The notes below the pieces were generated by a model. The model searched no databases. It was not told the origin of the DNA and saw only the letters and a list, made by a program, of their open reading frames with translations. This document shows, piece after piece, positions 11,829 through 34,799 of a stretch of DNA of 64,000 nt. Positions within the stretch are counted from its first letter, which is position 1, and each line of letters opens with the position of its first letter. Source of the DNA: Luteolibacter ambystomatis (GTDB lineage Bacteria > Verrucomicrobiota > Verrucomicrobiia > Verrucomicrobiales > Akkermansiaceae); contig NZ_CP073100.1 of NCBI RefSeq assembly GCF_018137965.1, forward strand, positions 2,491,754-2,555,753, given 5' to 3'. The position numbers and the translations under genes were made by a program.

Positions 11829-12575
11829 ATGAGTGATCCGTTTTCGATGCCCTCCTCGGGTGACTTCCATACCACGCGCTGGTCGGTGGTGATGGGCGCG
11901 TGTGCGGCGGCACCGGAGGAGCGGCGCGTGCAGTTCGGCGCGTTTTACCGGCAGTATTGGCCGCCGCTCTACAGCTATGCGCGCCGCCGCGGCCATAATC
12001 CGCACGACGCCCAGGATGTGACTCAGGATTTTTTCGCACGGCTGCTGGAGGGCGATTGGCTGTCCACGGCGGACCCGGCGCGAGGCCGGCTGCGGACGCT
12101 GCTGCTGGTGATGATGAAGCGCTTCCTGGCGAACCAATGGGACCGCGCGCATGCGGCGAAGCGCGGCGGCGGCCTGTCCCCCGTGAGCCTGCATGGCGAG
12201 GAGGCGGAGCAGATCTACCTGAGCGCGCCGGGTGCGGCGGTGCTGCCGGATGAATCGCTCTATGACCGGAGCTGGGCGCTCACGCTGATGACGGCGGCGC
12301 TGGCGCGGCTGAAGATCGAGCACCAGCAGCACGGGAAGATGGCGGAGTATGAACTGCTGAAGGACTGCCTGACCGCGGAGCGCGGAGAGATCGACTACGT
12401 GGCGGTGGCCACACATCTGCGGCTGCTACCGGCGACGGCGCGGAGCGTGGTCCACCGGTTCCGGAAGCGCTTCCGCGAGATCTTCCGCGAGGAGGTGGCG
12501 GCCACCGTGGCCTCACCCGCGGATGAGGAGGATGAAATGCGGGCCCTGCTCGCCAGCCTCGGGAGGATGGGGTGA
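11829..12575 (+). CDS. ECF sigma factor of the kinase-associated type
   Basis: A 248-residue protein starting MSDPFSMPSSGDFHTTRWSV. The FHTTRWSVVMGA opening, the HNPHDAQDVTQDFFARLLEGDWL region 2 and the C-terminal VAVATHLRLLPATARSVVHRFRKRFREIFR helix-turn-helix mark it as an ECF-like sigma factor. This long subtype is often encoded next to a Ser/Thr kinase in Planctomycetes and Verrucomicrobia, and here a kinase gene follows after 220 bases on the same strand. I took the internal ATG at 11829 since the family starts with this motif; the frame stays open to 11751. Confidence 0.82.
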   Translation: MSDPFSMPSSGDFHTTRWSVVMGACAAAPEERRVQFGAFYRQYWPPLYSYARRRGHNPHDAQDVTQDFFARLLEGDWLSTADPARGRLRTLLLVMMKRFLANQWDRAHAAKRGGGLSPVSLHGEEAEQIYLSAPGAAVLPDESLYDRSWALTLMTAALARLKIEHQQHGKMAEYELLKDCLTAERGEIDYVAVATHLRLLPATARSVVHRFRKRFREIFREEVAATVASPADEEDEMRALLASLGRMG

Positions 12576-12795
12576 GATCGGACGTGGGACAGGAGGATGG
12601 CGGATTCCGAGGAGGGCACCGGAACGGCCTTCTTGTGCCCCGGCAGGGGCAAAGAGTTCCTCCAACCGAGCATCCGCCGGAACCGCAGTCTGCTTTTTCC
12701 CGATTGCGAAATTTCCTGTCCTGAAATGCGACCCTTGAAGCGTTATCTTAAGAAGCATCGGCATGCCATGAGCTGACCACGCTGATCCAAAACCC

Positions 12796-14160
12796 ATGAT
12801 CGCCGCCGCCGACTCCCCCGTGACGACCTGCCCGCGCTGCGGCTCCCCGCTGGCGGGAGGCAGCGTGCAGGGGCTGTGCGCGCTCTGCCTGGGGGGCCTG
12901 CCGCTGGAGACGGACACACTGATGGGTGTGACGGGAAAACTGGAAACGCTGCCGCCACCGACGATCGGGGAACTGGCGGAGTTTTTCCCGCAGTTGGAGA
13001 TGCTCGGCTATCTGGGACGCGGCGGCATGGGCGTGGTGTATCAGGCGCGGCAGCGGTCGCTGGACCGGCTGGTGGCGCTGAAGCTGCTGGCCCCGGAGCG
13101 GGCGGGCGATCCGGCGTTCGCGCGCAGGTTCGCCCGCGAGGCGCGGTCGCTGGCGGCGCTGAACCACCCGCACATCGTGGCGGTGTATGATTCGGGCGAG
13201 GCGGGCGGCTACTTCTATCTGCTGATGGAGTATGTGGACGGGCAGAACCTGCGCGAGACGCTGCGGAAGCGGCGGATGGGTCCGGCCGAGGCGCTGGACC
13301 TGATCGGCCCGGTGTGCGATGCGCTGGAGCGCGCGCACCGCCGCGGGATCATCCACCGGGACATCAAGCCGGAGAACCTGCTCATTGATCGCACCGGTGT
13401 GGTGAAGATCGCCGATTTCGGGATTTCCCGGATGCTGGGCGAGACGGTGGAGGAGCACGCGGCGGGAGGTGCCGCCCCCCTTCATGCGCCGACACTGGCG
13501 GTAGGCACGCCGGCGTATGCGGCCCCGGAGCAACTGGCGGCCGCACCGCTGGACCCGCGCGCGGACCTGTACTCGCTGGGCGTGGTGCTGTGCGAGATGC
13601 TGACATGCATGCGGCCGGACCAGGTGCCGCTGGACAAGATGCGGCGGCAGATGCCTGCGAAGGTTTACGAATTGATCGCCCGGAGTGTGAAGGTCGCGCC
13701 GGACGCGCGGTTCGCCACCGCGGCGGAACTGCGGCGGAGCGTGAACCAGGCGCGGGAGGCGCTGGAGCGTGAGCCGCGGCGGAAGAAACTGTGGGTGGCG
13801 GGCATCGCGGTGGTGGCGGCGATGGCCGCCCTGGCGGGGATCGCGGCGAAGGCAGGGAGCGGGAAGAATGGTCCGGCGCCAGCGCCAAAGCCAGTGCCAG
13901 CACAGGCACCGATGACTCTGCTGGTGATGCCCGCGGCGGAGCCCACCGGGGAAAAGGAACCGGAGTCGCGGGAGGCCGCCTTGCAGGCCTTCGATGAGAA
14001 TTTCACCGCGCTGCTGGAAACACGGCGCGCACTGGCCATCGAGCCACCGGCGGATGCGGCGGAGCTTTCCGCGCTGAAGCAAAAGGCACGCTGGCTGGAA
14101 ACGCGGGGCCATGAACTGCGGGCATGGCTGGAGAAGCATCCGCAGGAGCAGAAGCCGTAA
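12796..14160 (+). CDS. membrane-anchored Ser/Thr protein kinase with N-terminal zinc ribbon
   Basis: A 454-residue protein. Residues 12-31 form a C-P-R-C-G ... C-A-L-C-L-G zinc ribbon. The kinase domain covers about 68-325, with glycine loop GRGGMG (74-79), VALK lysine 96, HRDIKPEN (187-194, catalytic Asp189), DFG (207-209) and APE (243-245); all key residues are present. One TM helix lies at about 332-350, then a Pro/Ala linker and a short helical C-terminus of about 80 residues. That C-terminus is small for a sensor. It phosphorylates Ser/Thr in the cytoplasm; targets are unknown, with the sigma factor upstream an obvious candidate. Its last 119 bases are duplicated at 20081. Confidence 0.93.
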   Translation: MIAAADSPVTTCPRCGSPLAGGSVQGLCALCLGGLPLETDTLMGVTGKLETLPPPTIGELAEFFPQLEMLGYLGRGGMGVVYQARQRSLDRLVALKLLAPERAGDPAFARRFAREARSLAALNHPHIVAVYDSGEAGGYFYLLMEYVDGQNLRETLRKRRMGPAEALDLIGPVCDALERAHRRGIIHRDIKPENLLIDRTGVVKIADFGISRMLGETVEEHAAGGAAPLHAPTLAVGTPAYAAPEQLAAAPLDPRADLYSLGVVLCEMLTCMRPDQVPLDKMRRQMPAKVYELIARSVKVAPDARFATAAELRRSVNQAREALEREPRRKKLWVAGIAVVAAMAALAGIAAKAGSGKNGPAPAPKPVPAQAPMTLLVMPAAEPTGEKEPESREAALQAFDENFTALLETRRALAIEPPADAAELSALKQKARWLETRGHELRAWLEKHPQEQKP

Positions 14161-14182
14161 GGAGAGCCAGCCATCCGGTTCA
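14041..14182. repeat. left direct repeat (kinase 3' end plus 22 bases)
   Basis: These 142 bases recur in the same orientation at 20081-20222 with four mismatches. The repeat covers the last 39 codons and stop of the kinase and the 22 bases after it. The two copies bracket the RiPP and SIR2/nSTAND block. Confidence 0.85.
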
Positions 14183-14208
14183 CAGGGAATACCCGGTCGA
14201 ATCGAGCC

Positions 14209-14802
14209 CTAGGCAATGCGGAGCAGGACGGCGGGAGCCAACATGCCCAATGTCCCCACATCAAAGGCAATCCCCCCCCGGATCCAGGAGCCTTCGCGTG
14301 GCTCCAATCGCAAGCGCACGGGACTCCCAACTCCGGACCCAAAGTTCACGTGAACGGGCTCATCACCCAAATTGACCAGAATGACCGCCGAGGCCACGGA
14401 ACCATCCACACCGATTCCCGAGAATTCCTGTCCGGCCGCGCTTACCAACACGTCGCAACGCGGGGTATCTCCCAGCGGCACCTTCTTGAAGCGGAGAAAG
14501 CCGGCCAGTGCGGCGACGAAGGATTCATAGGCAGCCGAAGGTTTTTCGAGCCCTGCATGCGTGGTGAGAAGATCATCCGCCACGGCCCACCATGAATCCT
14601 GCAAGTGCTCCGGGATCGCCAGCAAACCGATGTCAGGCTCCACCTCTTCGGCATCGATCACCAGAGACACCGAGTCCGCCCCATCGATGGACCGCCAGGC
14701 ACCAGCTTCTCCACCCTCACGGATTTCCAACCGATCCCGGGAGAGTCCGGTGAGGGTGAAGGCCGGCAGCACGGAGACCTGGATCGGACACGTCATCGAC
14801 AT
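14209..14802 (-). CDS. unknown partner protein of the radical SAM enzyme
   Basis: A 197-residue protein with no signal peptide or TM segment and one cysteine besides C5. Its start overlaps the radical SAM gene by 10 bases, so the two are co-translated. The C-terminal half reads as alternating beta strands (VILVNLGDEPVHVNFGSG, VRLRLEPREGSWIRGGIAF), reminiscent of a double-stranded beta-helix or cupin-like fold. I cannot find a convincing HxD...H iron-binding set. It could be a second tailoring enzyme, a precursor-binding protein or an immunity factor. Confidence 0.6.
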   Translation of the reverse strand: MSMTCPIQVSVLPAFTLTGLSRDRLEIREGGEAGAWRSIDGADSVSLVIDAEEVEPDIGLLAIPEHLQDSWWAVADDLLTTHAGLEKPSAAYESFVAALAGFLRFKKVPLGDTPRCDVLVSAAGQEFSGIGVDGSVASAVILVNLGDEPVHVNFGSGVGSPVRLRLEPREGSWIRGGIAFDVGTLGMLAPAVLLRIA

Positions 14803-15968
14803 CTTCGCAGCGGGGTAAGAGTCCGGGTTGCGGCCTCAAGCTTGTCGAGCACCGTATCCATCACCGCTTGCTTGGAGAGGCGGCAGAACATGGTCTCTGT
14901 GGAATCCAGCGAACCGTTCTCAAACAACTTGTTCACCGGCCCATCCCCACGGCACCAGCGGAAATACGCGCAACTCTCCCGGCAGCGCCGCACGCCCGAC
15001 GCGATGTCACGCGCCACCTGTTGGAACGCTCCATTCGAATGCATGGAATCAAACGAATCGTGCATCACATTTCCGAACGAAAAGCCGGAGTAGTGCTCAT
15101 GCTCCAATCCCAGAAATTCGGGAGAGAACGTGCTGAAATTCCCCAGATGATCCACGCTGATGATGGCCATGGGCGTGGTCTGCTGTGCCACCGGCAGTTC
15201 ACCAGTCAGGCCGGACCGCACCGCTGCGATCGCCCCGTCGAATTCACGCACGGCATAGGCCTCCCCGCTGCCGTTCACCAGGTCGAAAAAACGGCTCAGG
15301 AAGGCGCGGTACAACCTGTCCGCCTCCCCACCCTCCAGGGAAGATACCCGGTGCGGTCCCTCGATCTCCTCCACGTTGAAACCGATCTGCCGGATGCCCT
15401 CGCGACGGTAGAAATCGAAGATCTCATCGGGGTAGTCGAGCGATTGGCGGGTCAGCACGGTGATCACGTGGAAAGGAATGCCATGCTCCAGCAGCAGCCG
15501 GATGCCGCGCATGACCTGCACATGGGTGCCGCGGCCCGAACGGGTCTTGCGATGCCGGTCATGCAGGAAATCCGGCCCGTCCACACTCACCCCCACGCGG
15601 AATCCCTCGCTCCGGAGGAACCCGCACCACTCCGGTGTCAGCAGCGTCGCATTCGTTTGGACGGAATGGCCCACCTCGACCTGCCGGTGATTCTCCGCGC
15701 GCAGGATTTCCAAGGCCTCCCGGTAGTAGGCCACCGGCAGCGCCAGCGGCTCTCCCGCGTGCCACACCACCGTGAACCCTCCTGCCGCTCCGGCGGAGGA
15801 TTCGAGCGCCCGTGCGAACACCTTGGCCAGCACCTCGCGGCTCATCCGCACCTTCGACTGGCGGTTCGGCAGATAGCAATAGTCGCAATCCAGATTGCAG
15901 AAAGGCGAGGGCTGGATCACCAGAAGCTCCAGCTTCGTCTCATCCCCGCATATGCCATCCGCCGTCAT
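14793..15968 (-). CDS. radical SAM/SPASM peptide maturase, GrrM-like cyclophane synthase
   Basis: A 391-residue enzyme. The 4Fe-4S/SAM motif is C24-x3-C28-x2-C31 (PFCNLDCDYCYLPNR). WHAGEPL, the SAM-binding GGEP-type motif, lies near 69. The TNATLLTPEWCGFLRSEGF and GVSVDGPDFLHDRHRKT blocks are typical of SPASM peptide maturases, and the C-terminal CRESCAYFRWCRGDGPVNKL holds auxiliary-cluster cysteines. This pattern matches the GRRM-type branch known for rSAM-modified aromatic/Gly repeat peptides. It is 26 bases downstream of a precursor-like gene with W/F-x-N repeats, so it likely makes C-C crosslinks between aromatic side chains and Asn. Confidence 0.88.
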   Translation of the reverse strand: MTADGICGDETKLELLVIQPSPFCNLDCDYCYLPNRQSKVRMSREVLAKVFARALESSAGAAGGFTVVWHAGEPLALPVAYYREALEILRAENHRQVEVGHSVQTNATLLTPEWCGFLRSEGFRVGVSVDGPDFLHDRHRKTRSGRGTHVQVMRGIRLLLEHGIPFHVITVLTRQSLDYPDEIFDFYRREGIRQIGFNVEEIEGPHRVSSLEGGEADRLYRAFLSRFFDLVNGSGEAYAVREFDGAIAAVRSGLTGELPVAQQTTPMAIISVDHLGNFSTFSPEFLGLEHEHYSGFSFGNVMHDSFDSMHSNGAFQQVARDIASGVRRCRESCAYFRWCRGDGPVNKLFENGSLDSTETMFCRLSKQAVMDTVLDKLEAATRTLTPLRRCR

Positions 15969-15994
15969 TGCGCGCTACCGGCTGATCCCCATTG

Positions 15995-16336
15995 CTAGCG
16001 AACAGGAATATTCGGCCAGTTCGGCCAATTCGGCCAGTTGTTGAAGTTCGCCCAATTCGGCCAGTTCGGGAAGTTCCCCCAGAACTGCATCAAGCGGATA
16101 TCTTCCAATGACGGAGCGCCGAAAATCAACGCATCCAACTCGGGTAACTGGCTCAACGCCTCCACCCTCTGGGCAGGCTCAGCGATCTCGATCGGAACAA
16201 GCTCTTCGAGCCCGGCTTTGGAACCCGGAGCAGTTGCCAACAGGACGGTCGCAACGATCACCATGCCCACCCCTTCAGTGGCCCTACGCATCAACATCTC
16301 GGCGAGAACATTTCTTGATTTGATTTCTCTTTGCAT
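15995..16336 (-). CDS. RiPP precursor with eight consecutive aromatic-x-Asn triplets
   Basis: A 113-residue peptide. Residues 1-42 look like a signal or TM segment (MVIVATVLLATAPGSKA). A Leu/Glu-rich leader follows (ELVPIEIAEPAQRVEALSQL). The C-terminal core (DNA 16010-16081) is WGN, FPN, WPN, WAN, FNN, WPN, WPN, WPN with no spacing, then IPVR. Aromatic-x-Asn is the motif that three-residue cyclophane-forming radical SAM enzymes act on, and such an enzyme lies directly downstream. The nSTAND gene ends 57 bases upstream on the same strand, with an AT-rich gap that could hold a promoter. Later in-frame ATGs (16294, 16288) are possible starts. Confidence 0.82.
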   Translation of the reverse strand: MQREIKSRNVLAEMLMRRATEGVGMVIVATVLLATAPGSKAGLEELVPIEIAEPAQRVEALSQLPELDALIFGAPSLEDIRLMQFWGNFPNWPNWANFNNWPNWPNWPNIPVR

Positions 16337-16393
16337 GCCTTAACCAATTCAAAATCACAATGCCATAAATATCACCGCATCCAAGGATTAAAA

Positions 16394-18406
16394 TCATCTT
16401 CTCAGGGAACGCTTGGGACCACCTTTATCCGGATTGGGGACATCCTTGGATTTGGACCATCTGTCATACTCTCCTTCGGGAGAAAAATCCGCCAACGCCG
16501 GCAGCAATGCTTTTGCTTTTTCATACGCCTCAATCGCTTCAGCCTTTTTTGATTCGCCCTGCTTGGCAAGATCATTGCCCACTTCTATCAAATCCATCGC
16601 ATCCTTCCGAGCTTTCGCCTTCGCGCCCTTGCTAGCAAACTCTTGATACTGCTTCTCAGGGTCCAAATCAACAATCTTGCCCAATGCAGAAAATAGAACC
16701 TTGGCTTCCTTATACGCCTTGATTGCCTCCTCGCGATCGTCCATTGCAGCGGCTGTGTTACCCTCTTGAACCTTTGCATTGGCACTCATAACAGCCTGCC
16801 TATCCAGCTCATTCTTCCGCATTTGGACTTTGCTATAGAAGATCCATGCCGCCATAATAACCAGAACCGCGGCAGCAATCAAAACCACAGTCGTCAGCTT
16901 TCTAGATGCCTTCAGTTTATCGTCGGCAGTTGCCTGGTCCTGCAGTCTTCTACGCTCTGCGAGATCCAGCTCTTTTTCCTGGCGTCTTCTGAAAACATCG
17001 TCCCGCCTGCGATCGCACCAATCACGGAGAGCTAGCCCCATCACATCATGCACGAATTCGTAAAGGGGCTTCGAGGGTGGGCCGACTTTCCGCAGTAAAC
17101 TCATTTTCCGCCCCTGGGGATCATCGGATTCAAGCGCCAAGGCTTCCAGCAGACTCACAATCCTGCCTTCGTCTTGAATACCAGCATCCATGGCCAGGCG
17201 GCGGGGATCCCCTGCCTTCTTCTGGCCGCCGAAGCGGATGAGGAAGCGAAGAACCTCCGCGGCATCATCCTGCTGTTCCGGCGTCAATCTTGCCATGATC
17301 CCATCGAAATAGGTCCTTACCAGATAGCGGGCCTCCGATTCGTCCTCCGCCTTCTCGGCCGTCAAAGTTTCGAAAGTTGCCAGCTTCAGGAAAGATCCGC
17401 CGTCTTTCCCAATATCCTGCTCCCAAAGCCGGGTGAGGATGATCTGCAGGAACAGGGCCTTGTAGCGGAGGGTATCCTCCTGCGGGACCAACAGACGGGG
17501 AGAAAGATAAACATCTTCGAATCCGATCCGGTCCTCACGGATTTGCGCGAGTAGCTTGTCCTTGAGAGCGGGCTCTATGTCAACGCTCCGATACCCCGAT
17601 TGGGCATGGATTTCCAACGGGCGGGTCATCGCCTCCTCCGCTCCGTCATGTGTCAGGTGCTCCAGGCGGTACATGTTCCCGAGCAGATACGGGATGCGCG
17701 GTCGCAGCCGGTCCAGCTTGCCCAGGCCATCGTCCCGCAGGGACAAGATGAAGCTCGCGGGGACATCCTGGCGGTTGACCAACCGGGCGAAGGCGGCATC
17801 GAACGCAGCACCGGGCGAACCTTCGGGATGGTAGTAGAGATACTCTTCGAACTGATCGAAGATGAAGAACATCTGACCGGAAAACACCGCGCAGCACTCC
17901 ATGATGAAGCGATCCAGCGGAAGATCCTGTTCGCCGTAGAATGCCTCCTCCGCCATCGGAGTGTCATCGTCCGGCCCCAGGGCACCACGGAGCGCCTCCT
18001 CCAGTTCCGCGAAAGTGATCTCCGCTGGCAGGGCAGCATCGGGAACCGACTCTACCTGGCTTTTGCGCAGGCGGTTGATGACTTCCAGCAAGGCCTCGAG
18101 GATCTTGTGACGCAGGTACTTCGCGAAGTCCGGGGATTGCCAGTCACGGAACAGCAGGACCGCCACCCGGTGCTCCGGCTTCTGAAGTTCGGGTATCACC
18201 CCGGCCCGGATCAGCGAGGTCTTGCCGCAGCCGCTCTCGCCATAGAGCACGGTGAGCTTCGAGCCATAGAGCTTGGAGATGACTATCTGAATCTCCGAGC
18301 CACGCCCGGCGAAGTAGTCATTGTCCCCGCTGGAAAAAGGGTGAACCCCGCGATAGGGATTGGCTCCAAGCGAACCGCCTGTTTGTGGTGGTTGGCCGGT
18401 GGTCAT
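16394..18406 (-). CDS. nSTAND1-type P-loop ATPase with TM helix and TPR-like C-terminus
   Basis: A 670-residue protein. NPYRGVHPFSSGDNDYFAGR (16-35) is the hallmark entry of the nSTAND1 domain. Walker A is GESGCGKTS (56-64) and Walker B FFIFDQFEEY; the later PLYEFVHDVMGLALRDWCDRRR is the winged-helix signature. One TM helix lies at about 504-526. The C-terminal about 140 residues are helical, with two AIxAYxKAKxL TPR-like repeats (EEAIKAYKEAKVLFSAL, AEAIEAYEKAKALLPAL). STAND ATPases act as signal-triggered oligomeric switches. Its start overlaps the SIR2 stop by four bases, so it is probably the sensor/switch for that effector. Confidence 0.88.
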   Translation of the reverse strand: MTTGQPPQTGGSLGANPYRGVHPFSSGDNDYFAGRGSEIQIVISKLYGSKLTVLYGESGCGKTSLIRAGVIPELQKPEHRVAVLLFRDWQSPDFAKYLRHKILEALLEVINRLRKSQVESVPDAALPAEITFAELEEALRGALGPDDDTPMAEEAFYGEQDLPLDRFIMECCAVFSGQMFFIFDQFEEYLYYHPEGSPGAAFDAAFARLVNRQDVPASFILSLRDDGLGKLDRLRPRIPYLLGNMYRLEHLTHDGAEEAMTRPLEIHAQSGYRSVDIEPALKDKLLAQIREDRIGFEDVYLSPRLLVPQEDTLRYKALFLQIILTRLWEQDIGKDGGSFLKLATFETLTAEKAEDESEARYLVRTYFDGIMARLTPEQQDDAAEVLRFLIRFGGQKKAGDPRRLAMDAGIQDEGRIVSLLEALALESDDPQGRKMSLLRKVGPPSKPLYEFVHDVMGLALRDWCDRRRDDVFRRRQEKELDLAERRRLQDQATADDKLKASRKLTTVVLIAAAVLVIMAAWIFYSKVQMRKNELDRQAVMSANAKVQEGNTAAAMDDREEAIKAYKEAKVLFSALGKIVDLDPEKQYQEFASKGAKAKARKDAMDLIEVGNDLAKQGESKKAEAIEAYEKAKALLPALADFSPEGEYDRWSKSKDVPNPDKGGPKRSLRR

Positions 18407-19686
18407 GACCGCTGGACTGGGGTGGAAACCTGGAGCTTCAGCGCATTCTTGAGATCCCGGACAAAGGTGTTGAGATCCATGTCACATACCTCCACGCGAC
18501 GGATCTCCCATATCTTCTTGTCCACTCTCGTGGGCCCTTTTTGAATAGCCCAATGATCTTTGGCTGCCGATCTCGGTTCCTTCCCCTCTGAAGAGTCGTC
18601 CGGTGATTCCGCTGCGGAATCGGCGCAATCCGCCCGAGCCTGGATCCCCAGTGTCTTGCCCACACTGCCTCCACCTCTCCCCGCCTGTTTGCCCGCAGCA
18701 GCCCTTGGCTGGCCCCTGATGTTTTCGAGAATTACCCGGAAATTCCAGTCTTCGAGGCTATAGCCCATGAAGAGAAACTTCATATGCGGGTTGCAAGCCG
18801 AGATGAAGTCGGGAAGCACCCGCATCCCCCCGTTCAAACTCAAACGCGCGAGAAACCGCACATAGTCCTCTTCGGTAATCACGAATTCCCTGCTCTCCAC
18901 CGAGCCGTGCATCTTGTAGATGACGGGCAATCCCACCTTCGCGACAATACTATTCAAAACGTTGGTCCCAACCTCCTCCGATTTCTGGCTCGCGATGGGA
19001 CCATCTCCACCCGCCTTTGAGAATATCTCGTACTTGATGGAACCCACTTTCTCCGCGTTCCCGGTGATTTGGACGACCCTGACGAACGAGCGCCCCTTCT
19101 CGATATACGCATCCTCAATCAGCGTATCGTAATTGGTCGTCACGACGAGAGGAAACAGGTCTGCATTCTCGGCGAGAAAGTGATGGATGTCCCCGGGACG
19201 GCCGCAATTCCGGAATTTCGTTTCCAAAATGTGCCTGAGCGATCCTTCCGCCTGATCGTCACAGTCAGAACTGAAACAGTCATAGGTCAGTTCATAATAG
19301 GAAGCCACACGGGAAAGATTCTGACTATCAGAGAGATACCACGCCGGCAACCCTCCGTTCATGGCGATTTCATGAGCCAGTTCGGAAGCACTCGGTGCGA
19401 AGGCCGATCCGTTCTGAATATCCACCCTCGAGGGACGGGCTGACAAGCTGGCCCCTGCTCCCAAAAATGGAACTATCTCCTTCCCCCTAACGAACCTGCA
19501 CAAGGATCCGTAATTGGGCCGCTCGGTATTCGAGGTGGGACATTGGGAAATCTGGGAGTCGGTGATCTCATCAACGTCCGCCCTCTTGCTCTCTTCGGAC
19601 AGCTTGGACAAAGCATCTTCGAAATCATTGGTTTCGTACTGCCAAGCCTCCAGACCCCGACACCATCTGACACGCCACTTCATCAT
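18403..19686 (-). CDS. SIR2-family (SIR2_2-like) NAD-binding protein, likely effector
   Basis: A 427-residue protein with the sirtuin-fold motifs FLGAGAS (74-80), VVTTNYDTLIEDAY (about 181-194), KMHGS (His260) and MGYSLEDWNFR. This is the SIR2 branch found in prokaryotic defence systems, where it usually destroys NAD+ on activation. An unusual Gly/Ser-rich, low-complexity insert (about 325-380) separates the core from the C-terminal strand region. It is the first gene of a two-gene minus-strand operon with the nSTAND ATPase (ATGA overlap). Defence function is inferred from family and pairing. Confidence 0.85.
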   Translation of the reverse strand: MMKWRVRWCRGLEAWQYETNDFEDALSKLSEESKRADVDEITDSQISQCPTSNTERPNYGSLCRFVRGKEIVPFLGAGASLSARPSRVDIQNGSAFAPSASELAHEIAMNGGLPAWYLSDSQNLSRVASYYELTYDCFSSDCDDQAEGSLRHILETKFRNCGRPGDIHHFLAENADLFPLVVTTNYDTLIEDAYIEKGRSFVRVVQITGNAEKVGSIKYEIFSKAGGDGPIASQKSEEVGTNVLNSIVAKVGLPVIYKMHGSVESREFVITEEDYVRFLARLSLNGGMRVLPDFISACNPHMKFLFMGYSLEDWNFRVILENIRGQPRAAAGKQAGRGGGSVGKTLGIQARADCADSAAESPDDSSEGKEPRSAAKDHWAIQKGPTRVDKKIWEIRRVEVCDMDLNTFVRDLKNALKLQVSTPVQRS

Positions 19687-19977
19687 ATAGTTTTGGATAG
19701 ATTGACATTTTACACCACAACTCTCCCGCCATTGCCCCCCGGAGCGCCATATCCCTTTGGCAATGGCACTATTTCGGCAATTTCACCGGGGGGCGACTTG
19801 TCGACACTTCCGATATCACTGAATGGAACCGACCTCGCTTCCATAATCATCCATAGTGACACCATAAAATAACTATTCAGTCAATCTCAAACGTGACTCC
19901 CCCTCGCAACCATAGACTTTCGGTCATGATCTAACGAAAATCACCATGTCCGAACAATGACCTGCTCTTCTCCTGAA
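19687..19977. other. intergenic, upstream of SIR2/nSTAND operon
   Basis: About 290 bases, more AT-rich than the surroundings, with no gene I can support. It must hold the minus-strand promoter of the SIR2 gene. The sequence TATAGTTTTGGATAGATTGACATTTTA near 19685-19711 (given here only as a landmark of AT-rich character) is where I would look, but no clean -35/-10 pair stands out. Confidence 0.35.
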
Positions 19978-20200
19978 AAGCGGACGGCGATGGCCACCCT
20001 GGCGAAGACCGGGAGGAACGGCTCAACGCCGGTACCCGCGCCAGAACCAGCACAGGCACCGATGGCGCACGCTGGCGGTCGAACCACCGGCGGATGCGGC
20101 GGAGCTTTCCGCGCTGAAGCAAAAGGCACGGTGGCTGGAAACGCGGGACCGTGAACTGCGGGCATGGCTGGAGAAGCATCCGCAGGAGCAGAAGCCGTAA
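19978..20200 (+). pseudogene. remnant of a Ser/Thr kinase C-terminus
   Basis: Bases 19978-20066 encode a diverged copy of the kinase TM/linker (AMATLAKTGRNGSTPVPAP in place of AMAALAGIAAKAG...PAPAPKP). After a deletion and frameshift, bases 20081-20200 encode the exact kinase tail (PPADAAELSALKQKARWLE onwards to KP and stop) in a different frame. No kinase domain precedes it. It is either the debris of a tandem kinase paralogue or a duplication made when the intervening block was inserted. Confidence 0.85.
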
Positions 20201-20222
20201 GGAGAGCCAGCCATCCGGTTCA
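20081..20222. repeat. right direct repeat (copy of kinase 3' end)
   Basis: Same orientation as 14041-14182, 138 of 142 bases identical by my count. The identity continues 22 bases past the stop codon (GGAGAGCCAGCCATCCGG) and then stops abruptly in both copies. A sigma factor fusion gene begins 61 bases later. Confidence 0.85.
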
Positions 20223-20283
20223 TACGTTTTCTGTCGGATTCCCCTCCGGAGCGGCCATATTGGAATGAAGGGTGTTCCGGTAT

Positions 20284-22320
20284 ATGTTCCACGATTCGGC
20301 TCCAGCATCCACCGGCGGGCTCACGCACCGTCCGGAAGCCGCCTTGCGCGATCTCTTCACCGCGCACGCCGGTCACGTCTATGCGACGGCGGTGCGCTGT
20401 TGCAGAGGCCGCATGGATCTGGCGGAGGAGGTCACCCAGGCGGTCTTTTGCGAATGGATGCGCAGCTCGGCAACCTTCCCGGCCGATGTCGTGCCCGGAG
20501 GCTGGTTGCACCGCTGCACGGTTTACAAGTCCTCCGAGATCCTGCGGAGCGAGGCGCGGCGGAAGCAATACGAGCGAAGGGCCGCCACCCAGCAATCGCT
20601 GCTCGCCACCGGAGCGGATGACCCGCACTGGCGGGAACTGGCTCCGATGATCGATGAAATCCTGGAGCATCTGCCCACGGCGGACCGGAACGCGCTGATC
20701 CTCCGCTTCTATGAACGCTGCGATTTCCGGGAAGTGGGAAGGAGGCTCGGCCTGTCCGCTGACACGGCGCAGAAGCGGGTATCGAGAGCACTGCAGCGGT
20801 TGAAAGCGGAGTTCGCACGCCGTGGCATTCACAGCACCGGCGGCACCCTCGGCTCCTATCTCGCCACGGGCATCATCTTCGCACCGCCGCCCGGATTCCT
20901 CTCCAGCCTCACCCTGCCCTCCCTCTCCCCCTCCACCGCGACCCTGAAAACCCTCACTGCAATCATGAGCACAAACACGAAACTCGGTATCCTCGGCGCG
21001 GGTCTGTGCGCCACGCTGGCGATCACGGCACTGATACAGCACCACACCCTCGCGGATCAGAAGCAGTCGATCCGCGATCTGCAGGGGCGGCTGGCCGCGG
21101 CAGGCGTACCCTCCTCCGGCCCGATGGTGAGATCCTCTTCCGAACGCAGGGCGCGGACGACTTCCTCAGGCAAGGATTCCGCCATGCGCCCGGAAGATCT
21201 CTTCGCCAAGGCGCTGGCTGAAACCGACCCGCTAAAGCGGATGAGCGAGTGGACCGGACTGCTCCAGTCGATGCGGAAGGACGAAGCGGTGGCGGTGGCG
21301 GAAATGTTCAAGAACCACATGGAGGACTTCGACCACGAGCGGTTTCTATTCCTGCGATCCTGGGGGGCGCTGGATGGCAGGGCAGCAGCCGATTTCCTGA
21401 AAAAGACGGGGGTTTATTCCGAGGATTTCACCGCGGTCATGGCTGAATGGGCCCATCAGGATCCCGCTGCCGCAGTCGCCTGGCTCGAGGCGAATCCCAT
21501 GGAAAAAAGCAGCGCTCTGGTGGGCATCACCGAAGGATGGGCACGGAAGGATCTGGCCTCCGCCTCAAGGTGGGTGGAGAGTCAACCCGGCTCCCAGTCA
21601 CGGTTGGATATGCTGAACGTGTTGTTCAAGCAGCAGGTCGAGCAAGGAGGCCTGGAGGGAGCCAAGACATGGTTCGCCAACATCGGCAGCGACCCACACA
21701 ATGATAACTACCGCCAGCGCGGCTATGAGCTGCTCTGCGTGGAAATCAGCAAGGGCGATCCGGACGCAGCCCTGCAATGGCTGGAACAAAACGCCACCGC
21801 CGCCTATGCCCGCAAAAGTGAGGCTGTGGACGGAGTCTTGAGGCAAATCGCGAACAGAGACGGGGAGAAAGCCGTGCAGTGGATCCTCGATCATCCGGAG
21901 GTTTACGGCTGGAGGGGCCGCAGCCACACACTCGCCGAGGCAGTGGAAACATGGGCCAAGCGCGAAACCGATGGTCCTGCGGATTTGCTCAAGGGTCTGG
22001 CGGGAACCGAGAACTACGATCCATCGGTCGCGGCCTTCGCTTCAAGCACCAGGGCCCGGGGGCTCTACGAAACCAGCTTGGAATGGACGCAAACCATCGG
22101 TGACCCGGAAACACGTGAAAGGATCTACTCTGAAACCGCCAATCGATGGTTGAGTGCGGATCGCGAAAACGCCGGCAGCTATCTGCGGAATCAAGGCTAC
22201 ACGGCGGAAGAGATCACCAAACTCGCCGCCCCGCGCAGCTTCACCCTTAGCGGCGGCATGCGGCTCGGCTTCAGCGAAGCCGACTCAAGCGTCGTATCGG
22301 AACCGACCAAACAGGAGTAG
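20284..22320 (+). CDS. second ECF sigma factor fused to TM helix and helical repeats
   Basis: A 678-residue protein. Sigma region 2 lies at about 18-90 (LRDLFTAHAGHVYATAVRCC, MDLAEEVTQAVFCEWMR, GGWLHRCTVYKS) and region 4 at about 125-180 (EHLPTADRNALILRFYERCDF, SADTAQKRVSRALQRLK). One TM helix lies at about 232-251 (LGILGAGLCATLAITALI). A predicted helical repeat region with a recurring A-W-L/V-E-x-x-P pattern (DPAAAVAWLEANP, DLASASRWVESQPG, DPDAALQWLEQN) extends to the end. It parallels the gene at 5250. A GTG at 20272 is in frame, but the ATG fits better with an upstream GAAGGG. Likely a membrane-tethered transcription factor controlled by its outer domain. Confidence 0.83.
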   Translation: MFHDSAPASTGGLTHRPEAALRDLFTAHAGHVYATAVRCCRGRMDLAEEVTQAVFCEWMRSSATFPADVVPGGWLHRCTVYKSSEILRSEARRKQYERRAATQQSLLATGADDPHWRELAPMIDEILEHLPTADRNALILRFYERCDFREVGRRLGLSADTAQKRVSRALQRLKAEFARRGIHSTGGTLGSYLATGIIFAPPPGFLSSLTLPSLSPSTATLKTLTAIMSTNTKLGILGAGLCATLAITALIQHHTLADQKQSIRDLQGRLAAAGVPSSGPMVRSSSERRARTTSSGKDSAMRPEDLFAKALAETDPLKRMSEWTGLLQSMRKDEAVAVAEMFKNHMEDFDHERFLFLRSWGALDGRAAADFLKKTGVYSEDFTAVMAEWAHQDPAAAVAWLEANPMEKSSALVGITEGWARKDLASASRWVESQPGSQSRLDMLNVLFKQQVEQGGLEGAKTWFANIGSDPHNDNYRQRGYELLCVEISKGDPDAALQWLEQNATAAYARKSEAVDGVLRQIANRDGEKAVQWILDHPEVYGWRGRSHTLAEAVETWAKRETDGPADLLKGLAGTENYDPSVAAFASSTRARGLYETSLEWTQTIGDPETRERIYSETANRWLSADRENAGSYLRNQGYTAEEITKLAAPRSFTLSGGMRLGFSEADSSVVSEPTKQE

Positions 22321-22610
22321 TAAAACAAACTCCAGCCGCCGTCTTCATGAAGCATCGCCATCGCGGCCCTTGGCAAAGGCGGGAATGAGATCCCATGAGT
22401 CTCCGGCGGATCGATTTACGATATTCCCAGCAAACAAAAAGGCAGGGACGCACCGCCGGGGCGTCCGGGCGGTGGAGATATGTACAAAGCCTAGATTGGA
22501 GAGAGGTATTATTTGGGTTCAATGCAATCCATTAAAGAACTATACTGATTTTCGGTTTTTAGGGAATGCTTCGGAGGGAAGCCGGATTGAGTGATTACAG
22601 CATGATCACA

Positions 22611-23636
22611 CTACTTTGAGATCGACTTTGTCGAAACCACACCATCGGAGGTGGCTGATATGATTTGCATTCCATTTTCTGATGGGATGCTTAATATTGC
22701 GGCAGGAGCGTTCTGTTTGTGCAAGGAATTTGGATTATAGGTTGCAACAACAAGAGATCCGTCATCCGTTCGATAAAATAACCCCTCTTCCTTCGAGACC
22801 CCAGAGCTAGTGAGTTTAAATAAATTTTCTGGATGGGAATTATATTTTTCCTTATAGTGATTCAACTGGGATACAATATACCTCAAATAGTCTTCCCGTT
22901 TAATTTTGTCCAATGGATTACCGCCGTTTTGAGATTCCCTCCATGCTTGCCTTCTTTTAGCATAATCGCGGATTGTGGCAATTTGCTCCTTCCGCTGACC
23001 ATCCTTAGCCTCTGTGAAAGAAAAAAGCAGTCGATGTTGTTTTTGAGGATCTTTTAGAATATCCTCAATTCTTTGCCAATTTTGTTGTTCCGAGGCATTA
23101 TCTGATTGTTTTTTACTGGAAGCAAATTCGATAGCCTTTTCACTCCCCAAAATTTCACCTAAAACATAAGACATTACTTCTAGATCATTGTCGGGAATTT
23201 GAATTTGGAAAAAATCCGTATGCTCTAAAATCCCAACAGTCGTCGCACCCCCCTGTATTAGCAGTTTTGCGACAGGATAATCTTCTCGATGAAGACCTTT
23301 CAACGATGTGTCCGAAGGGTCGTCATATTCGGGAAATGGGATGAAAGTCAACTTATCGAAAAGTAAGTCGCCATATTTTGAAATTAGTGCAACACCACCA
23401 TCGGCGATTTTTTTTACCGCGCTTTCTTGGGTGTATTGCCCGTCAAAGGGGTATTCCTGCGCTGCGCTATCACCCTGGTTGTGAACAGCGGTGCGTTTCA
23501 CCACGACTCCTTCCAACGGCTGCTTTTCAACCGGGATGACGACATGGCCCTCGATGGGGACTGATTCCTGGGCAAAAAGCGGGGCCGCCAGACATAGCAA
23601 CCCGGAAAGCACGACAAAGAAAATCTTTGGATTCAT
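22611..23636 (-). CDS. secreted protein of unknown function, low GC
   Basis: A 341-residue protein with a signal peptide (MNPKIFFVVLSGLLCLAAPLFAQ), which fixes the start at 23636 although the frame opens at 23684. The mature part has no recognisable family. It contains VALISKYGDLLFDKLTFIPF and a charged helical middle (ASSKKQSDNASEQQNWQRIEDILKD cut by many Lys/Gln). Base composition is clearly more AT-rich than its neighbours, suggesting recent acquisition. The 290 bases after the preceding plus-strand gene hold nothing I can name. Confidence 0.65.
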   Translation of the reverse strand: MNPKIFFVVLSGLLCLAAPLFAQESVPIEGHVVIPVEKQPLEGVVVKRTAVHNQGDSAAQEYPFDGQYTQESAVKKIADGGVALISKYGDLLFDKLTFIPFPEYDDPSDTSLKGLHREDYPVAKLLIQGGATTVGILEHTDFFQIQIPDNDLEVMSYVLGEILGSEKAIEFASSKKQSDNASEQQNWQRIEDILKDPQKQHRLLFSFTEAKDGQRKEQIATIRDYAKRRQAWRESQNGGNPLDKIKREDYLRYIVSQLNHYKEKYNSHPENLFKLTSSGVSKEEGLFYRTDDGSLVVATYNPNSLHKQNAPAAILSIPSENGMQIISATSDGVVSTKSISK

Positions 23637-23801
23637 GGGGAGCGGTTGCATACGACCCGTGACGAAAAACCGACTGAGCCTCAAGAGGATTCGCTATTTT
23701 CACCGGTTTTTCACATTTCGGATCATCTCAATGCAACGCAGAGGCAAGTTTTCTCCGTTTGGGAATCTGTGCATCAAATTGTCCCACCCTTCAGACGATG
23801 C

Positions 23802-30726: not shown

Positions 30727-32514
30727 ATGTCCAACCTAAGCGATGCCATCTGGAATCTGAATGCAGAGGCCGAATACGGTCCTTCGGATCTGGAACTGGC
30801 GGATCAGGGGCAAACCGTATTCCGCAGGTTCGGAGAAAAACTCCTGCAGACCATCCGGCAAAACCAACCGTCCGTTCACAAAGGGTATCTGGCGGTCGCA
30901 GGTCTGGCCCGGGCGGCGTTCAAGATTGCCGCCACCTTCCCACCGGACTCCCCGGTTTTCGGGATCGAGATCGAACGTTCGTTGACGGACAATCTGTTTG
31001 GCAATCAGGAGACCTTCCGGCACATGGATTCACAGGACGCGGGATTGCTGCCCGGGAAGCTGGAGCCGGGCCAGTCCCGTATCGTGATCAAGTTGCTCGG
31101 AAACGGAGAGTACTTCGGTCTGTTCTGTGCGGATGTGGATTCCGCAGGAGCCAATCAGTTGGTGGGTGAACTGCGTTCCGCGTGGCAGGCCATCTGCCGC
31201 TGCCTTTCCGAGGCCGTGTTTTCGATGCGCTTGGAAGCACTCGCCGCACCCTTCAACTTTGGTGAAATCGCCGGCGATGGAAACGTCTCCGAAAAGGATC
31301 TCCATGAGCAGATCTGCCGTCAGGCGGCACTCGGCTTCGCCGCCGATGGGGCTGTGCTGCGCCTCTACAACGAAGCAGAAAGCACTCTGGAGGTACGTGG
31401 AAGCTGGGGGGAAATCCGTCATGCGCCCGGGGAGCGCGGTGGTCCCGCCGAACGCATCTGCCAACGTGTTTTCGAAGACGATGGGAACTATGGCACGGCA
31501 AGGGCTCTCCGATCCGGAAAAGGATTCGGCATCGAAATCACCGCGGACGATGAGGAAACCCTCCGCCGTGTCGGCATCGGCTCCTACATGGTGATGAGTC
31601 TGCAATCCGATATCGTATCCACCAGTTTTGCGGGCAAACTCGGCACCCTTTCCATCTTTCACTACCGCGAACATGAGTTCTCCCTCCGGGACATCCGGTT
31701 GTTCCATTCATTCACGGAGCGGGTCGGAGACGATCTGGCACTGATCGCTCTGATGAGAAAGCAGGAGGAGATCAATGAGTTCGTGATGACCCAATCCAAT
31801 GCCTCGACCCGTGCGGAGATCATCTCCCTTTTCGCCCACGATCTGGGCCACAAGGCGATTCATGCCACGGAAAAAACCCGCGACTTGATCGACAACGCCA
31901 AAAAGGCGATCCGCCAAAAGCTCTCGTTTGAGAAAATCCAGACTTCGGCGGAGGAGGCGGAGGAAGCCTGCCTGCGGATGGAGACCGAGCTGGGACAACT
32001 CAAGAATCTCACCAAACATTTCGATCCGGGAGACGAGGAGGATTTCTCCGTGCATGATTTGTTCACCAACATCCACCGCGATTTCAGAGCCGCCCTGGAC
32101 CGCAACGGCATGAGCATGGAAATCCAGGTCAGCGGCAATACCACGCTGCGCGGTGCCCGGCGGGTCTTGCAACAGGTCGTTTTCAATCTGGTGATCAACG
32201 CCATCGATGCACAGAAATCGACCGGCAGGAGCCGGAAGAACATCATCCACGTGCGTTGCACGGAAAACACCACGGGATCGCGCCGACAAATCAAAATCCT
32301 CTTTTGGGATGACGGACCCGGCATCAGCTGGGCGCACTTCCCCAATCCGAACGATATCTTTCTTCTCGGAAAAACCTCCAAAAAGGACGGGCAGGGTACC
32401 GGCACGGGACTGCCCATGTCCCGCCGTCTGATCGACAGTCATTTCCGTGGCAGCCTCGAGTTGAAGGATCGGAGCAAAGCCTTGTTTGAATTGACCCTCG
32501 AAGCGACAGCCTGA
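30727..32514 (+). CDS. soluble GAF-domain histidine kinase
   Basis: A 595-residue protein with no TM helix. Residues 1-185 are unassigned. About 190-345 is GAF-like (LHEQICRQAALGFAADGAVLR, GTLSIFHYREHEFSLRDIRLF). 360-430 is the dimerisation helix pair with phospho-acceptor candidate His371 in LFAHDLGHKAIHATEKTRDL. 440-592 is the HATPase_c domain with N-box NLVINAIDA (487-495), G1 DDGPGI (528-533) and G2 GTGTGLPMSR (557-566). Cytoplasmic sensing by GAF is predicted. It leads a four-gene run with a receiver protein 29 bases downstream. Confidence 0.9.
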   Translation: MSNLSDAIWNLNAEAEYGPSDLELADQGQTVFRRFGEKLLQTIRQNQPSVHKGYLAVAGLARAAFKIAATFPPDSPVFGIEIERSLTDNLFGNQETFRHMDSQDAGLLPGKLEPGQSRIVIKLLGNGEYFGLFCADVDSAGANQLVGELRSAWQAICRCLSEAVFSMRLEALAAPFNFGEIAGDGNVSEKDLHEQICRQAALGFAADGAVLRLYNEAESTLEVRGSWGEIRHAPGERGGPAERICQRVFEDDGNYGTARALRSGKGFGIEITADDEETLRRVGIGSYMVMSLQSDIVSTSFAGKLGTLSIFHYREHEFSLRDIRLFHSFTERVGDDLALIALMRKQEEINEFVMTQSNASTRAEIISLFAHDLGHKAIHATEKTRDLIDNAKKAIRQKLSFEKIQTSAEEAEEACLRMETELGQLKNLTKHFDPGDEEDFSVHDLFTNIHRDFRAALDRNGMSMEIQVSGNTTLRGARRVLQQVVFNLVINAIDAQKSTGRSRKNIIHVRCTENTTGSRRQIKILFWDDGPGISWAHFPNPNDIFLLGKTSKKDGQGTGTGLPMSRRLIDSHFRGSLELKDRSKALFELTLEATA

Positions 32515-32543
32515 GTTCGCCAATATTCTCCAAATCGAAAAAT

Positions 32544-33371
32544 ATGAACGAGACCTATTCCCCCGTGGCACTGATCGTGGACGATGACGAAGCTGTTGTG
32601 GCCCGTTTGTCGAGGAACTTTCTTCGCGAAACTTCCATGGGTGTGCTTGTGGCGCAGACTCTCTCCGAGGCTGCGGATCTCATCGAAAACGATGATGTCC
32701 GCATCGACGCCCTCGTGATGGACTTGAACTTCCGGGAAGGAACGCGGGATGACAGCCGCGATCTGCGCGATGGCCTGGATTTCATCCAGTTTGCCCAAAA
32801 GGCACGGCAGGAGGTTCCCACCGCTGTTGTCTCGGTGGAGGGAGATGATGCGGATCGGAAAACCCAGGCGCAGAGGATGAAAATCCGCGTCAACAGTTGG
32901 CATCCGAAGCTTGGCCAGCAGCCGGGGCCTTTGAGCCCGTGGGCCACCGTGGAGCGAGCCTGCCTGACCAAGACCTTGAAAACGGATCGCGATTTTCGCT
33001 CCCGACTGAAGCAATTGGGAATCGAGGTGCAGGATCTGCTTACGGACGAAGCCATTGCGGAAAAGGTGCGCAAGGTGGTGCGCTTCCCGCGTCTGACCTA
33101 TCTGACAAATCTGGGATCCGATTTCGAGGCGATCAGACCGATTGAAGTGATCTGTTCACAGGTGGGGAAAGGACGCTACTCCGCCAGCGCCATTCAGATC
33201 GGCATGCTTACCTCCGGCGAGGGGGAGAATCTGGATGAGGCGGTCGAAGATCTGGCCGGCATCCTGGTGGAAGAGGCGAAGCTCTATCTGTCCGGAGACT
33301 ATGAACCGATGGGCTATGCCGCGAAAGTGCGGGACAATCTCCTGTCCTTCCTCAAGCCGGTGTCCGCGTAA
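32544..33371 (+). CDS. receiver-domain protein with HicB-like C-terminal domain
   Basis: A 275-residue protein. The receiver domain is at 7-125 with acidic pocket DDD (13-15), phospho-acceptor Asp60 in ALVMDLNF and switch residue Ser97 (AVVSVEG). Residues 125-190 are a helical linker. Residues 196-250 (RPIEVICSQVGKGRYSASA, then LTSGEGENLDEAVEDLAGILVEEAKLYL) read like a HicB antitoxin: a beta strand, an aspect like YxAxxPEL..G, then the G-x-T-x-x-EA-x-x-N-x-x-EA-x-x-x-Y-L helix. No usual DNA-binding output domain is present. It is followed 30 bases on by a HicA-like gene. The HicB assignment is my reading, not a search result. Confidence 0.72.
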   Translation: MNETYSPVALIVDDDEAVVARLSRNFLRETSMGVLVAQTLSEAADLIENDDVRIDALVMDLNFREGTRDDSRDLRDGLDFIQFAQKARQEVPTAVVSVEGDDADRKTQAQRMKIRVNSWHPKLGQQPGPLSPWATVERACLTKTLKTDRDFRSRLKQLGIEVQDLLTDEAIAEKVRKVVRFPRLTYLTNLGSDFEAIRPIEVICSQVGKGRYSASAIQIGMLTSGEGENLDEAVEDLAGILVEEAKLYLSGDYEPMGYAAKVRDNLLSFLKPVSA

Positions 33372-33401
33372 CATCCTCCCGATCGAACAATATTTCCGGA
33401 T

Positions 33402-33929
33402 ATGGCTATCAAGCTGAAGGATCTCGACCGCTTTCTGGTAAGCGGCAAAATGGGCTTTGATCGGCGTGAGGAGTCCAGACACACGGGGTATGTGGTCCGC
33501 ATGGGGAATGCCAGGCTCGGCCTTCCCACCCTGCTGAGGGTCTCCCATGGAGGGGGGGATGCCGCCCTCAACAACATCAAAGGCGTGGCCCAGGCTCTGG
33601 GGCTGAATGTCAAGGAGCTGCAAACCGCGGAGAAATGCCATATCTCACGCGAATGCATCCTTCTCATGCTGTCCGTCCACATGCTGGACTTCGCCGTCAA
33701 CCGTCGCGCCATGTTGCGGGACAAGGATGAGGGCGAGGCGGGCATCCGGGCCATGGTGGAGTCCGTGAAAATCATTCTGGCTCAAACCCCCACCTTGTCG
33801 AAAAAAGCTTGGACCGGGGAGGAATTGAAAGCCTTCGGGCGGGTGCGCCATCTTCTGCAGCAATGGGAGAAGGAACCCCTCACGGCGGAGGCAGCCAAAG
33901 CCATCATTTCCCACACCAGCAGGGGATAA
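33402..33929 (+). CDS. HicA-like protein with C-terminal helical extension
   Basis: A 175-residue protein. Residues 1-75 resemble the HicA mRNA interferase fold: KLKDLDRFLVSGKMGFDRRE, then SRHTGYVV with His27 where HicA has its catalytic G-S-H-x-x-F, then LLRVSHGGGDAALNNIKGVAQALGLNVKEL, matching V-P-x-H-G...LxxIxxQAGLS-x-EEF. About 100 further, mostly helical residues have no match to HicA, which is normally 60-80 long. It sits between the HicB-like receiver gene and the SIR2 gene (three bases apart), which supports a regulated toxin/adaptor role. Confidence 0.6.
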   Translation: MAIKLKDLDRFLVSGKMGFDRREESRHTGYVVRMGNARLGLPTLLRVSHGGGDAALNNIKGVAQALGLNVKELQTAEKCHISRECILLMLSVHMLDFAVNRRAMLRDKDEGEAGIRAMVESVKIILAQTPTLSKKAWTGEELKAFGRVRHLLQQWEKEPLTAEAAKAIISHTSRG

Positions 33930-33932
33930 GCC

Positions 33933-34799
33933 ATGAGCGTCCTCCCCAAGCATCTGGCCGACTTCATCAAGTACAGGCGTTGCATTGCCTTCGTCGGCGC
34001 GGGGTTTTCCCGAATCTGCGGCATGCCGGACTGGACCGGTCTGATGCGCAACATGCTGGAATATTGCCACGAATTGAACGGTGACACGCCCGAGCTTCAA
34101 TCCAGCAAAAGGAATTTGGATGCTGGCAATTTGACAGAAGCTGCCAATGACTTGCGGGATATGTTGCATCCTGCGGAATACTTTGAATTCCGCAAAAAAC
34201 AGTTCGCGTGGCAAAAATACTCAGCGGCTCCAAAGGAGATATACGAACGCATGAGACTACGGCTTCAGAATCTGGAAGCCGCACCATGGTCCGGAATCAT
34301 CACGACCAATTTCGACAGCTTGATCTACAATGTCTGTGGAAACAATGGCTGGCTCATCCACTACGGAGACGACAGCTCCTTGGGTCATGTGCTCAGCAGC
34401 AAGGAACGTTTCCTTGTCTACCTTCACACCGTTGCAGGAAACAAGAGCAAGGTGGTTCTTTCCTCGGAGGACTATTTCAAAGCCTACCTCAACAATTCCG
34501 AGATCAAGACGGTGATTCCCTTTCTGAAAGCGGCCATGTTGAGCCATCATTTCGTATTCATCGGCTGCTCGATGGAACCCCGGTTGCTTGATCTCCGCAA
34601 GGAACTATATCAGGCATTCGATGGAGAAATTCCCGTTTCCTATGCGTTGCTGCCCAATACGCAGCAGAACCGCGACCGGGAGGGATACCTTGGAACATTC
34701 GCCATCAGGCCGGTGTTTTACGACGTGGAGACCGTCTCCGATCCGCCTCATATGGCCGTGGATCAATTTCTGGAAGAGACCGCGGCGTTGAAGGTGTGA
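33933..34799 (+). CDS. SIR2-like protein, probable NAD-consuming effector
   Basis: A 288-residue protein. The sirtuin motifs are FVGAGFS (20-26), GIITTNFDSLIY (121-132), YLHT with His165 (usually HG) and FIGCSMEPRLLDLR (209-222). It is shorter than, and not closely similar to, the SIR2 protein at 18403. AGGGG lies eight bases before the ATG. Single-domain SIR2 effectors in defence operons deplete NAD+. Here control would come from the kinase/receiver/HicA-like genes in front, which is inference. It is the last gene of the operon. Confidence 0.82.
   Translation: MSVLPKHLADFIKYRRCIAFVGAGFSRICGMPDWTGLMRNMLEYCHELNGDTPELQSSKRNLDAGNLTEAANDLRDMLHPAEYFEFRKKQFAWQKYSAAPKEIYERMRLRLQNLEAAPWSGIITTNFDSLIYNVCGNNGWLIHYGDDSSLGHVLSSKERFLVYLHTVAGNKSKVVLSSEDYFKAYLNNSEIKTVIPFLKAAMLSHHFVFIGCSMEPRLLDLRKELYQAFDGEIPVSYALLPNTQQNRDREGYLGTFAIRPVFYDVETVSDPPHMAVDQFLEETAALKV

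Follow-up and report, generated by a model that had tools for sequence, protein, structure and literature searches.

Genes of the locus

The locus lies in a 64,000-nucleotide stretch of the Luteolibacter ambystomatis genome (contig NZ_CP073100.1), which is referred to here as the window. It consists of five genes on the minus strand, in the order SIR2, nSTAND1, precursor, GrrM and P0003, with the following features:

18403-19686, minus strand: SIR2_2 (PF13289) protein of 427 aa, candidate effector of the NADase type (Pfam, E=4.9e-21)
16394-18406, minus strand: nSTAND1 (PF20703) NTPase of 670 aa (Pfam, E=2.1e-29)
15995-16336, minus strand: ORF of 113 aa plus stop codon, putative triceptide-type RiPP precursor
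16214-16273, minus strand: hydrophobic, signal-peptide-like segment GVGMVIVATVLLATAPGSKA (precursor aa 22-41, from hydropathy)
16148-16177, minus strand: precursor leader motif PAQRVEALSQ, matching by visual comparison the I-x-x-R-L/V-x-x-V/I motif of relatives
16010-16081, minus strand: core of eight contiguous aromatic-x-Asn triplets, WGNFPNWPNWANFNNWPNWPNWPN (precursor residues 86-109)
14793-15968, minus strand: radical SAM/SPASM maturase of the GrrM/OscB family, 391 aa
14209-14802, minus strand: accessory protein P0003, 197 aa

The SIR2 and nSTAND1 genes overlap by 4 bp, and the P0003 gene overlaps the stop of GrrM by 10 bp. A gap of 57 bp separates the nSTAND1 gene from the start of the precursor, and GrrM begins 26 bp beyond the precursor. 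Because these overlaps and gaps are short and all on one strand, the five genes from SIR2 to P0003 look like one transcription unit. No RNA families of Rfam were found over positions 12500-22500.

The SIR2 protein also matched the ThsA SIR2 models of PADLOC (E=2.6e-13) and carries the motifs GAGAS, TTNYD and MHGS, with the catalytic Asn and His motifs. In the adjacent nSTAND1 protein the Walker motifs are intact (A, GESGCGKT; B, FIFDQFEE), which gives the pair the make-up of an nSTAND1/SIR2 module. Hydropathy predicted one strong transmembrane (TM) helix at aa 504-522 of the nSTAND1 protein, followed by a C-terminal part that is weakly TPR-like. There are three nSTAND1 copies in the window genome and a TM helix is present in one of the other two; since such a helix is common among nSTAND1 proteins generally, we take this topology as weak evidence. 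SIR2-STAND switches are of a type used by bacteria in immunity and self-killing. The earlier note on this DNA had missed the pair, and its presence in the same apparent operon changes the probable purpose of the precursor and GrrM.

The precursor and its maturase

The earlier note had described a precursor with eight gapless aromatic-x-Asn triplets, and both ORF and core were found exactly as it had given them. The core reads WGN FPN WPN WAN FNN WPN WPN WPN, with Pro as the middle residue of five of the eight triplets. A pattern of four consecutive [W/F]-x-N triplets gave 5 overlapping matches, all within the array, against an expectation of 0.00 from 100 dinucleotide shuffles. Across the 5.32-Mb genome, a three-triplet pattern matched the array, one weak site with mixed codons and nothing else, and the reversed pattern, searched as a control in the whole genome, had 0 matches. 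By this genome-wide pattern search the genome has no second array of this kind. Its units vary synonymously (AAC or AAT for Asn) and by swaps between W and F, each of which takes two base changes (TGG/TTC); Asn is retained in all eight. Taken together, the synonymous differences, the two-base swaps and the constant Asn point to an array shaped by selection at the protein level and not by mere DNA repetition.

The maturase scored 446.7 bits against TIGR04261 ('cyclophane-forming radical SAM/SPASM peptide maturase GrrM/OscB'), above the curated cut-off of 310. It contains the CxxxCxxC motif, and in an alignment of 101 relatives the three radical SAM Cys and the four C-terminal SPASM Cys are all invariant. 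One SPASM loop reads CRGD in the window GrrM and CGGG in relatives. The nearest solved structures are anaerobic sulfatase maturases and ChlB. A search of a viral collection returned a single distant radical SAM match and no phage link.

OscB forms bonds between Trp C7 and the C-beta of Asn or Asp, and between Phe C4 and that of Asn (review PMC11002830); the core of the precursor is a perfect OscB-type substrate array. The earlier proposal that the precursor is a substrate for three-residue cyclophane formation is thereby strengthened: a GrrM/OscB enzyme scoring above its cut-off is the immediate neighbour, its Cys are kept and the motif fits OscB. As judged from these sequence features, triceptide chemistry at the window locus is likely.

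Contiguous arrays at other GrrM loci

When the precursor sequence itself was used as query, no relatives were found in genome contigs or plasmids; related precursors were located via the maturase. The search for homologous precursors suggested earlier was thus fruitless when led by sequence and productive when led by the enzyme. Among 80 enzyme relatives and further genomes we recorded contiguous arrays, defined as at least 4 triplets ending in N, D, K, R, S or Q. These were present at 19 GrrM loci including the window, and the 18 others (numbered L below, as are all compared loci) have 4-11 triplets each, in cyanobacteria, Acidobacteriota, Myxococcota and Proteobacteria. The longest, of 11 triplets, is from Adonisia (L006); arrays of 10 occur at L008, L010 and L072 (Leptolyngbya, Adonisia and an acidobacterium) and one of 9 at L131. 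The array of L127 also has 8 triplets, FPN FPN FNN FPN FPN FPN FPN FRN, six of them with central Pro, and Pro at the triplet centre is common among the contiguous-array loci. The eight contiguous motifs and the central Pro had both been considered unusual in the earlier note. Since both recur at other GrrM loci, neither can be kept as a novelty and we have dropped them as such; the claim that the array is unique does not hold, and the operon coupled to STAND and SIR2 genes is the part worth following. The contiguous arrays are compact substrates for the question of whether an enzyme can install consecutive strained cyclophanes without a gap between them.

Most of the compared precursors have a leader motif of approximately I-x-x-R-L-x-x-V and a C-terminal core. 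An N-terminal hydrophobic segment resembling that of the window precursor was seen in 15 of the 15 relatives whose sequences were compared, and the segment at aa 22-41 and the motif PAQRVEALSQ sit where the relatives have their hydrophobic segment and leader motif. The Nostoc precursors found in the operon have no long arrays, and none has more than two W-x-K motifs. Their arrays appear shrunken (WGKWAK and WVKWAK in L013 and L023) and in L119 almost lost, with the operon intact.

In a draw of 388 genomes from the phylum, GrrM was found in the window genome alone. The GrrM loci L088, L089 and L091, from the same order, are of a different subtype with a DUF692-like gene. At these three and at L018 (all Verrucomicrobiota) the GrrM-family enzyme lies beside a DUF692/MNIO-looking protein, the MNIO assignment being made by eye, and the precursors of L088, L089 and L018 have C-terminal cores rich in Cys and WRN, for example GWCWRRNYFSNCWRRNCWRNSC. 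From their sequences these four loci look like hybrid triceptide/MNIO RiPP systems. At L059 a large WD40 repeat protein precedes the GrrM precursor, whose array (FDDFDDFDDFDD) is made of Phe-Asp-Asp.

The extent of crosslinking bears on the shape of the product. The window array may be crosslinked only in part, either because the five triplets with central Pro are poor substrates or because the altered SPASM motif weakens the enzyme, and the product would then be a partly cyclised peptide and no rod. We give this a real chance, though one well short of even. It is favoured by the change from CGGG to CRGD in an otherwise conserved SPASM loop, and experimental data on central Pro were not found in the accessible literature; however, the frequency of central Pro in related arrays, up to the six of eight in L127, suggests that these enzymes accept Pro, and the cluster-binding Cys of the window enzyme are all kept.

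The accessory protein P0003

P0003 had no matches in Pfam or NCBIfam. Homologues are encoded directly after GrrM at L002, L003, L005, L006 and L014/L124, and near GrrM at L121, L122 and L128. Those of L006, L121, L122 and L128 share Y-x-G-L-H-x-D and IIHD motifs and a downstream R/K-G motif, which resemble the HxD...H...R residues of Fe(II)/2OG oxygenases. P0003 is shorter than these four and has lost the HxD and the second His. Its structural model, of medium confidence (pLDDT 71), matched double-stranded beta-helix proteins with modest TM-scores of approximately 0.4-0.56, among them acireductone dioxygenase, AlkB, ALKBH5 and a prolyl hydroxylase; the model of the L006 homologue (pLDDT 35) was left out. 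On the strength of the model and the motifs, P0003 is probably a non-catalytic helper, a degenerate member of a GrrM-associated 2OG-oxygenase-like family, and the oxygenase-like proteins related to it may modify such peptides in relatives.

A further conserved protein follows GrrM at L004, L005 and L014/L124 and shares a (V/L)-(D/E)SPE(V/I)YSRERLVNDR-like sequence. At L005 and L014 it comes after the P0003 homologue and is 933-1039 aa long with one N-terminal TM region; the L004 copy ends at a contig edge, and the L005 copy had no Pfam match.

Association of GrrM with nSTAND1 genes

The order effector gene, nSTAND1, precursor, GrrM on one strand was also found at L013, L023, L119, L050, L061 and L127. 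In Nostoc (L013, L023 and L119) the operon runs from a CHAT-SIR2 protein over an nSTAND1-WD40 protein to precursor and GrrM, with an extra upstream gene, identified by Pfam as Trypco2 in L013 and of the same appearance in L023 and L119. The Methylumidiphilus operon (L050) starts with a TIR gene, followed by nSTAND1, precursor and GrrM. In the alphaproteobacteria L061 and L127 the first gene, which precedes nSTAND1, had no Pfam match; a trypsin-like gene adjoins both operons, with an EAD1 fusion in L061. At L072, nSTAND1 and TIR genes are convergent with GrrM. In addition, nSTAND1-WD40 genes lie near GrrM at L008, L009, L010 and L041, and an nSTAND1 gene at L030 and L131; these calls were made by Pfam for L009 and L041 and by a local profile for L008, L010, L030 and L131.

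An nSTAND1 gene was present in the flanks, as fetched, of 10 of the 19 loci with runs of at least 4 triplets versus 4 of the 82 others (Fisher p = 3e-6, a value that ignores shared ancestry). The Nostoc operons account for three of the four nSTAND1-positive loci lacking long arrays. In the tree of the enzyme, neighbouring nSTAND1 genes occurred in 0 of 52 members of the classical cyanobacterial clade with Gly-rich GrrA and in 11 of 33 elsewhere. About eight changes are needed on this tree, which indicates that the link between GrrM and nSTAND1 recurs in several lineages. When the window nSTAND1 was compared with three Nostoc genomes, the best match was the GrrM-linked copy in all three, and this similarity suggests that the window and Nostoc modules share a history; in Crocosphaera and Leptolyngbya the best match was a copy other than the GrrM-linked one.

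SIR2-nSTAND1 pairs without GrrM, recognised by motif, occur at L133-L136, and many GrrM loci are without nSTAND1. Neither half strictly requires the other, therefore, and the GrrM-free pairs indicate that the module is built from exchangeable parts. Mobile defence genes often settle near one another, and the precursor and GrrM could make an exported triceptide that works by itself, such as a bacteriocin-like or surface peptide, with their genes beside an unrelated SIR2-STAND defence pair by chance. The separate occurrence of the two halves is in line with this, as is the GC3 of the SIR2 and nSTAND1 genes (0.65-0.66), which differs from that of GrrM (0.78). We nevertheless consider a chance neighbourhood unlikely: the same gene order is found in distant phyla, with short gaps at most loci; the only nSTAND1 copy of each of two genomes (G521 and G522) adjoins GrrM; and the chance of any nSTAND1 lying within approximately 8 kb is 0.2-4% per genome.

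That the precursor is an ordinary, unmodified exported repeat protein is very improbable: its signal-like segment and simple repeat core would fit, but GrrM beside it scores above the curated cut-off, its leader motif and core architecture are common to GrrM-linked precursors of several phyla, and the adjacency of precursor and GrrM is conserved across relatives, contrary to the lack of a conserved radical SAM neighbour by which the earlier note would have recognised such a protein.

Comparison with known systems

The locus resembles the GrrA/OscA-GrrM/OscB systems (TIGR04260/TIGR04261) in its maturase, a full member by the curated score, in its W/F-x-N motifs, and in a precursor with a signal-like N-terminus and a leader motif of similar type. 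Unlike GrrA/OscA, in which the motifs are spaced by Gly-rich linkers, its motifs are contiguous, and the precursor had no match to TIGR04260 at E<=1. The other contiguous-array precursors that were tested also failed this GrrA model; the Nostoc precursor of L013 matched it weakly (16.6 bits, cut-off 31). The window further differs in having SIR2, nSTAND1 and P0003, whereas L044 and L116 have a neighbouring substrate-binding protein gene. The AmcA/AmcB models (NF041721/NF041718) matched the precursor weakly across its core (E=0.0084) and the enzyme at 310 bits, and both matches stay below the curated cut-offs (16.5 versus 40 bits for the precursor and 310 versus 425 bits for the enzyme).

The SIR2_2 effector gene followed by nSTAND1 is as in SIR2-STAND defence pairs, such as those at L133-L136, but in the window the genes of a RiPP precursor and of its maturase come directly after the pair. 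A published parallel for such a combination is found in the FxSxx-COOH/FxsB modules of VMAP systems, which couple a small variable peptide and a radical SAM-SPASM maturase with TIR and a STAND-class ATPase; for FxSxx peptides encoded next to VMAP/TIR-AP-ATPase systems a role as peptide toxin or signal has been proposed (Kaur et al. 2020, PMC7159879). The window enzyme belongs to another subfamily (FxsB score 102, cut-off 370), the peptide is different, nSTAND1 and SIR2 take the place of AP-ATPase/VMAP/vWA, and no metallopeptidase (zincin) gene was seen among the annotated neighbours in the window. A coupling of GrrM triceptides to nSTAND1 was not seen in the open literature that we searched.

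Proposed role of the triceptide

In the reading that we consider more probable than not, a cassette for a triceptide (three-residue cyclophane) forms part of a conflict operon of the STAND type. This reading draws on the enzyme assignment, the chemistry of OscB, the kept Cys, the operon geometry, the recurring gene order, the census of flanks, the rarity of nSTAND1 and the FxSxx parallel. Counting against it are the SIR2-nSTAND1 pairs without GrrM, the CRGD change, the short Nostoc arrays, the best matches in Crocosphaera and Leptolyngbya, and the lack of a Pfam match for the first alphaproteobacterial gene.

In such an operon GrrM would recognise the leader of the precursor and, to go by its family and the motif, join the aromatic residue (Trp or Phe) of several triplets, perhaps of all eight, to the beta-carbon of their Asn. 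The product would be a stiff chain of consecutive small rings, which the N-terminal hydrophobic segment is predicted to send out via the Sec route. The nSTAND1 protein, anchored by its TM helix, may sense an attack or cue, oligomerise and, by analogy with known STAND-SIR2 defence proteins, fire the NADase-type SIR2 effector. Very tentatively, the exported cyclophane peptide could be the partner that this switch has beyond the membrane: it may be an alarm or toxin that is released while the operon is on, or it may be what nSTAND1 monitors. It is conceivable, though we would not put it at even odds, that the rigid rod is a dedicated working part, namely a ligand, bait or alarm released or monitored by a membrane-anchored STAND-SIR2/TIR switch.

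The chemistry of triceptides of the GrrM/OscB family is known, but an established biological role for these peptides is not known to us. A role that can be tested is suggested by the recurrent operon, in which the contiguous-array subtype goes with nSTAND1 and, next to it, SIR2 or TIR genes: the secreted cyclophane peptide may be a component of bacterial immunity, its trigger or its output. If true, a triceptide would be the messenger in a class of bacterial systems for immunity or self-recognition and, together with the published FxSxx-VMAP link, two triceptide-type radical SAM subfamilies would be tied to STAND/TIR-type systems.

Other genes in the window

The annotated genes around the locus include, besides SIR2 and nSTAND1, a protein kinase and ECF sigma factors. 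An ORF at 22611-23684 has a GC content of 0.44 and a GC3 of 0.43, compared to approximately 0.65 around it, and had no family match above cut-off; it is likely to be foreign. A second nSTAND1 match in the window (60906-61286) lies in a large plus-strand ORF (59952-62828). Finally, a gene run on the plus strand (30727-34799) contains a response-regulator-like ORF (32544) and a SIR2-looking N-terminus (33933, AFVGAGFSR), and is perhaps a further signalling or defence unit.
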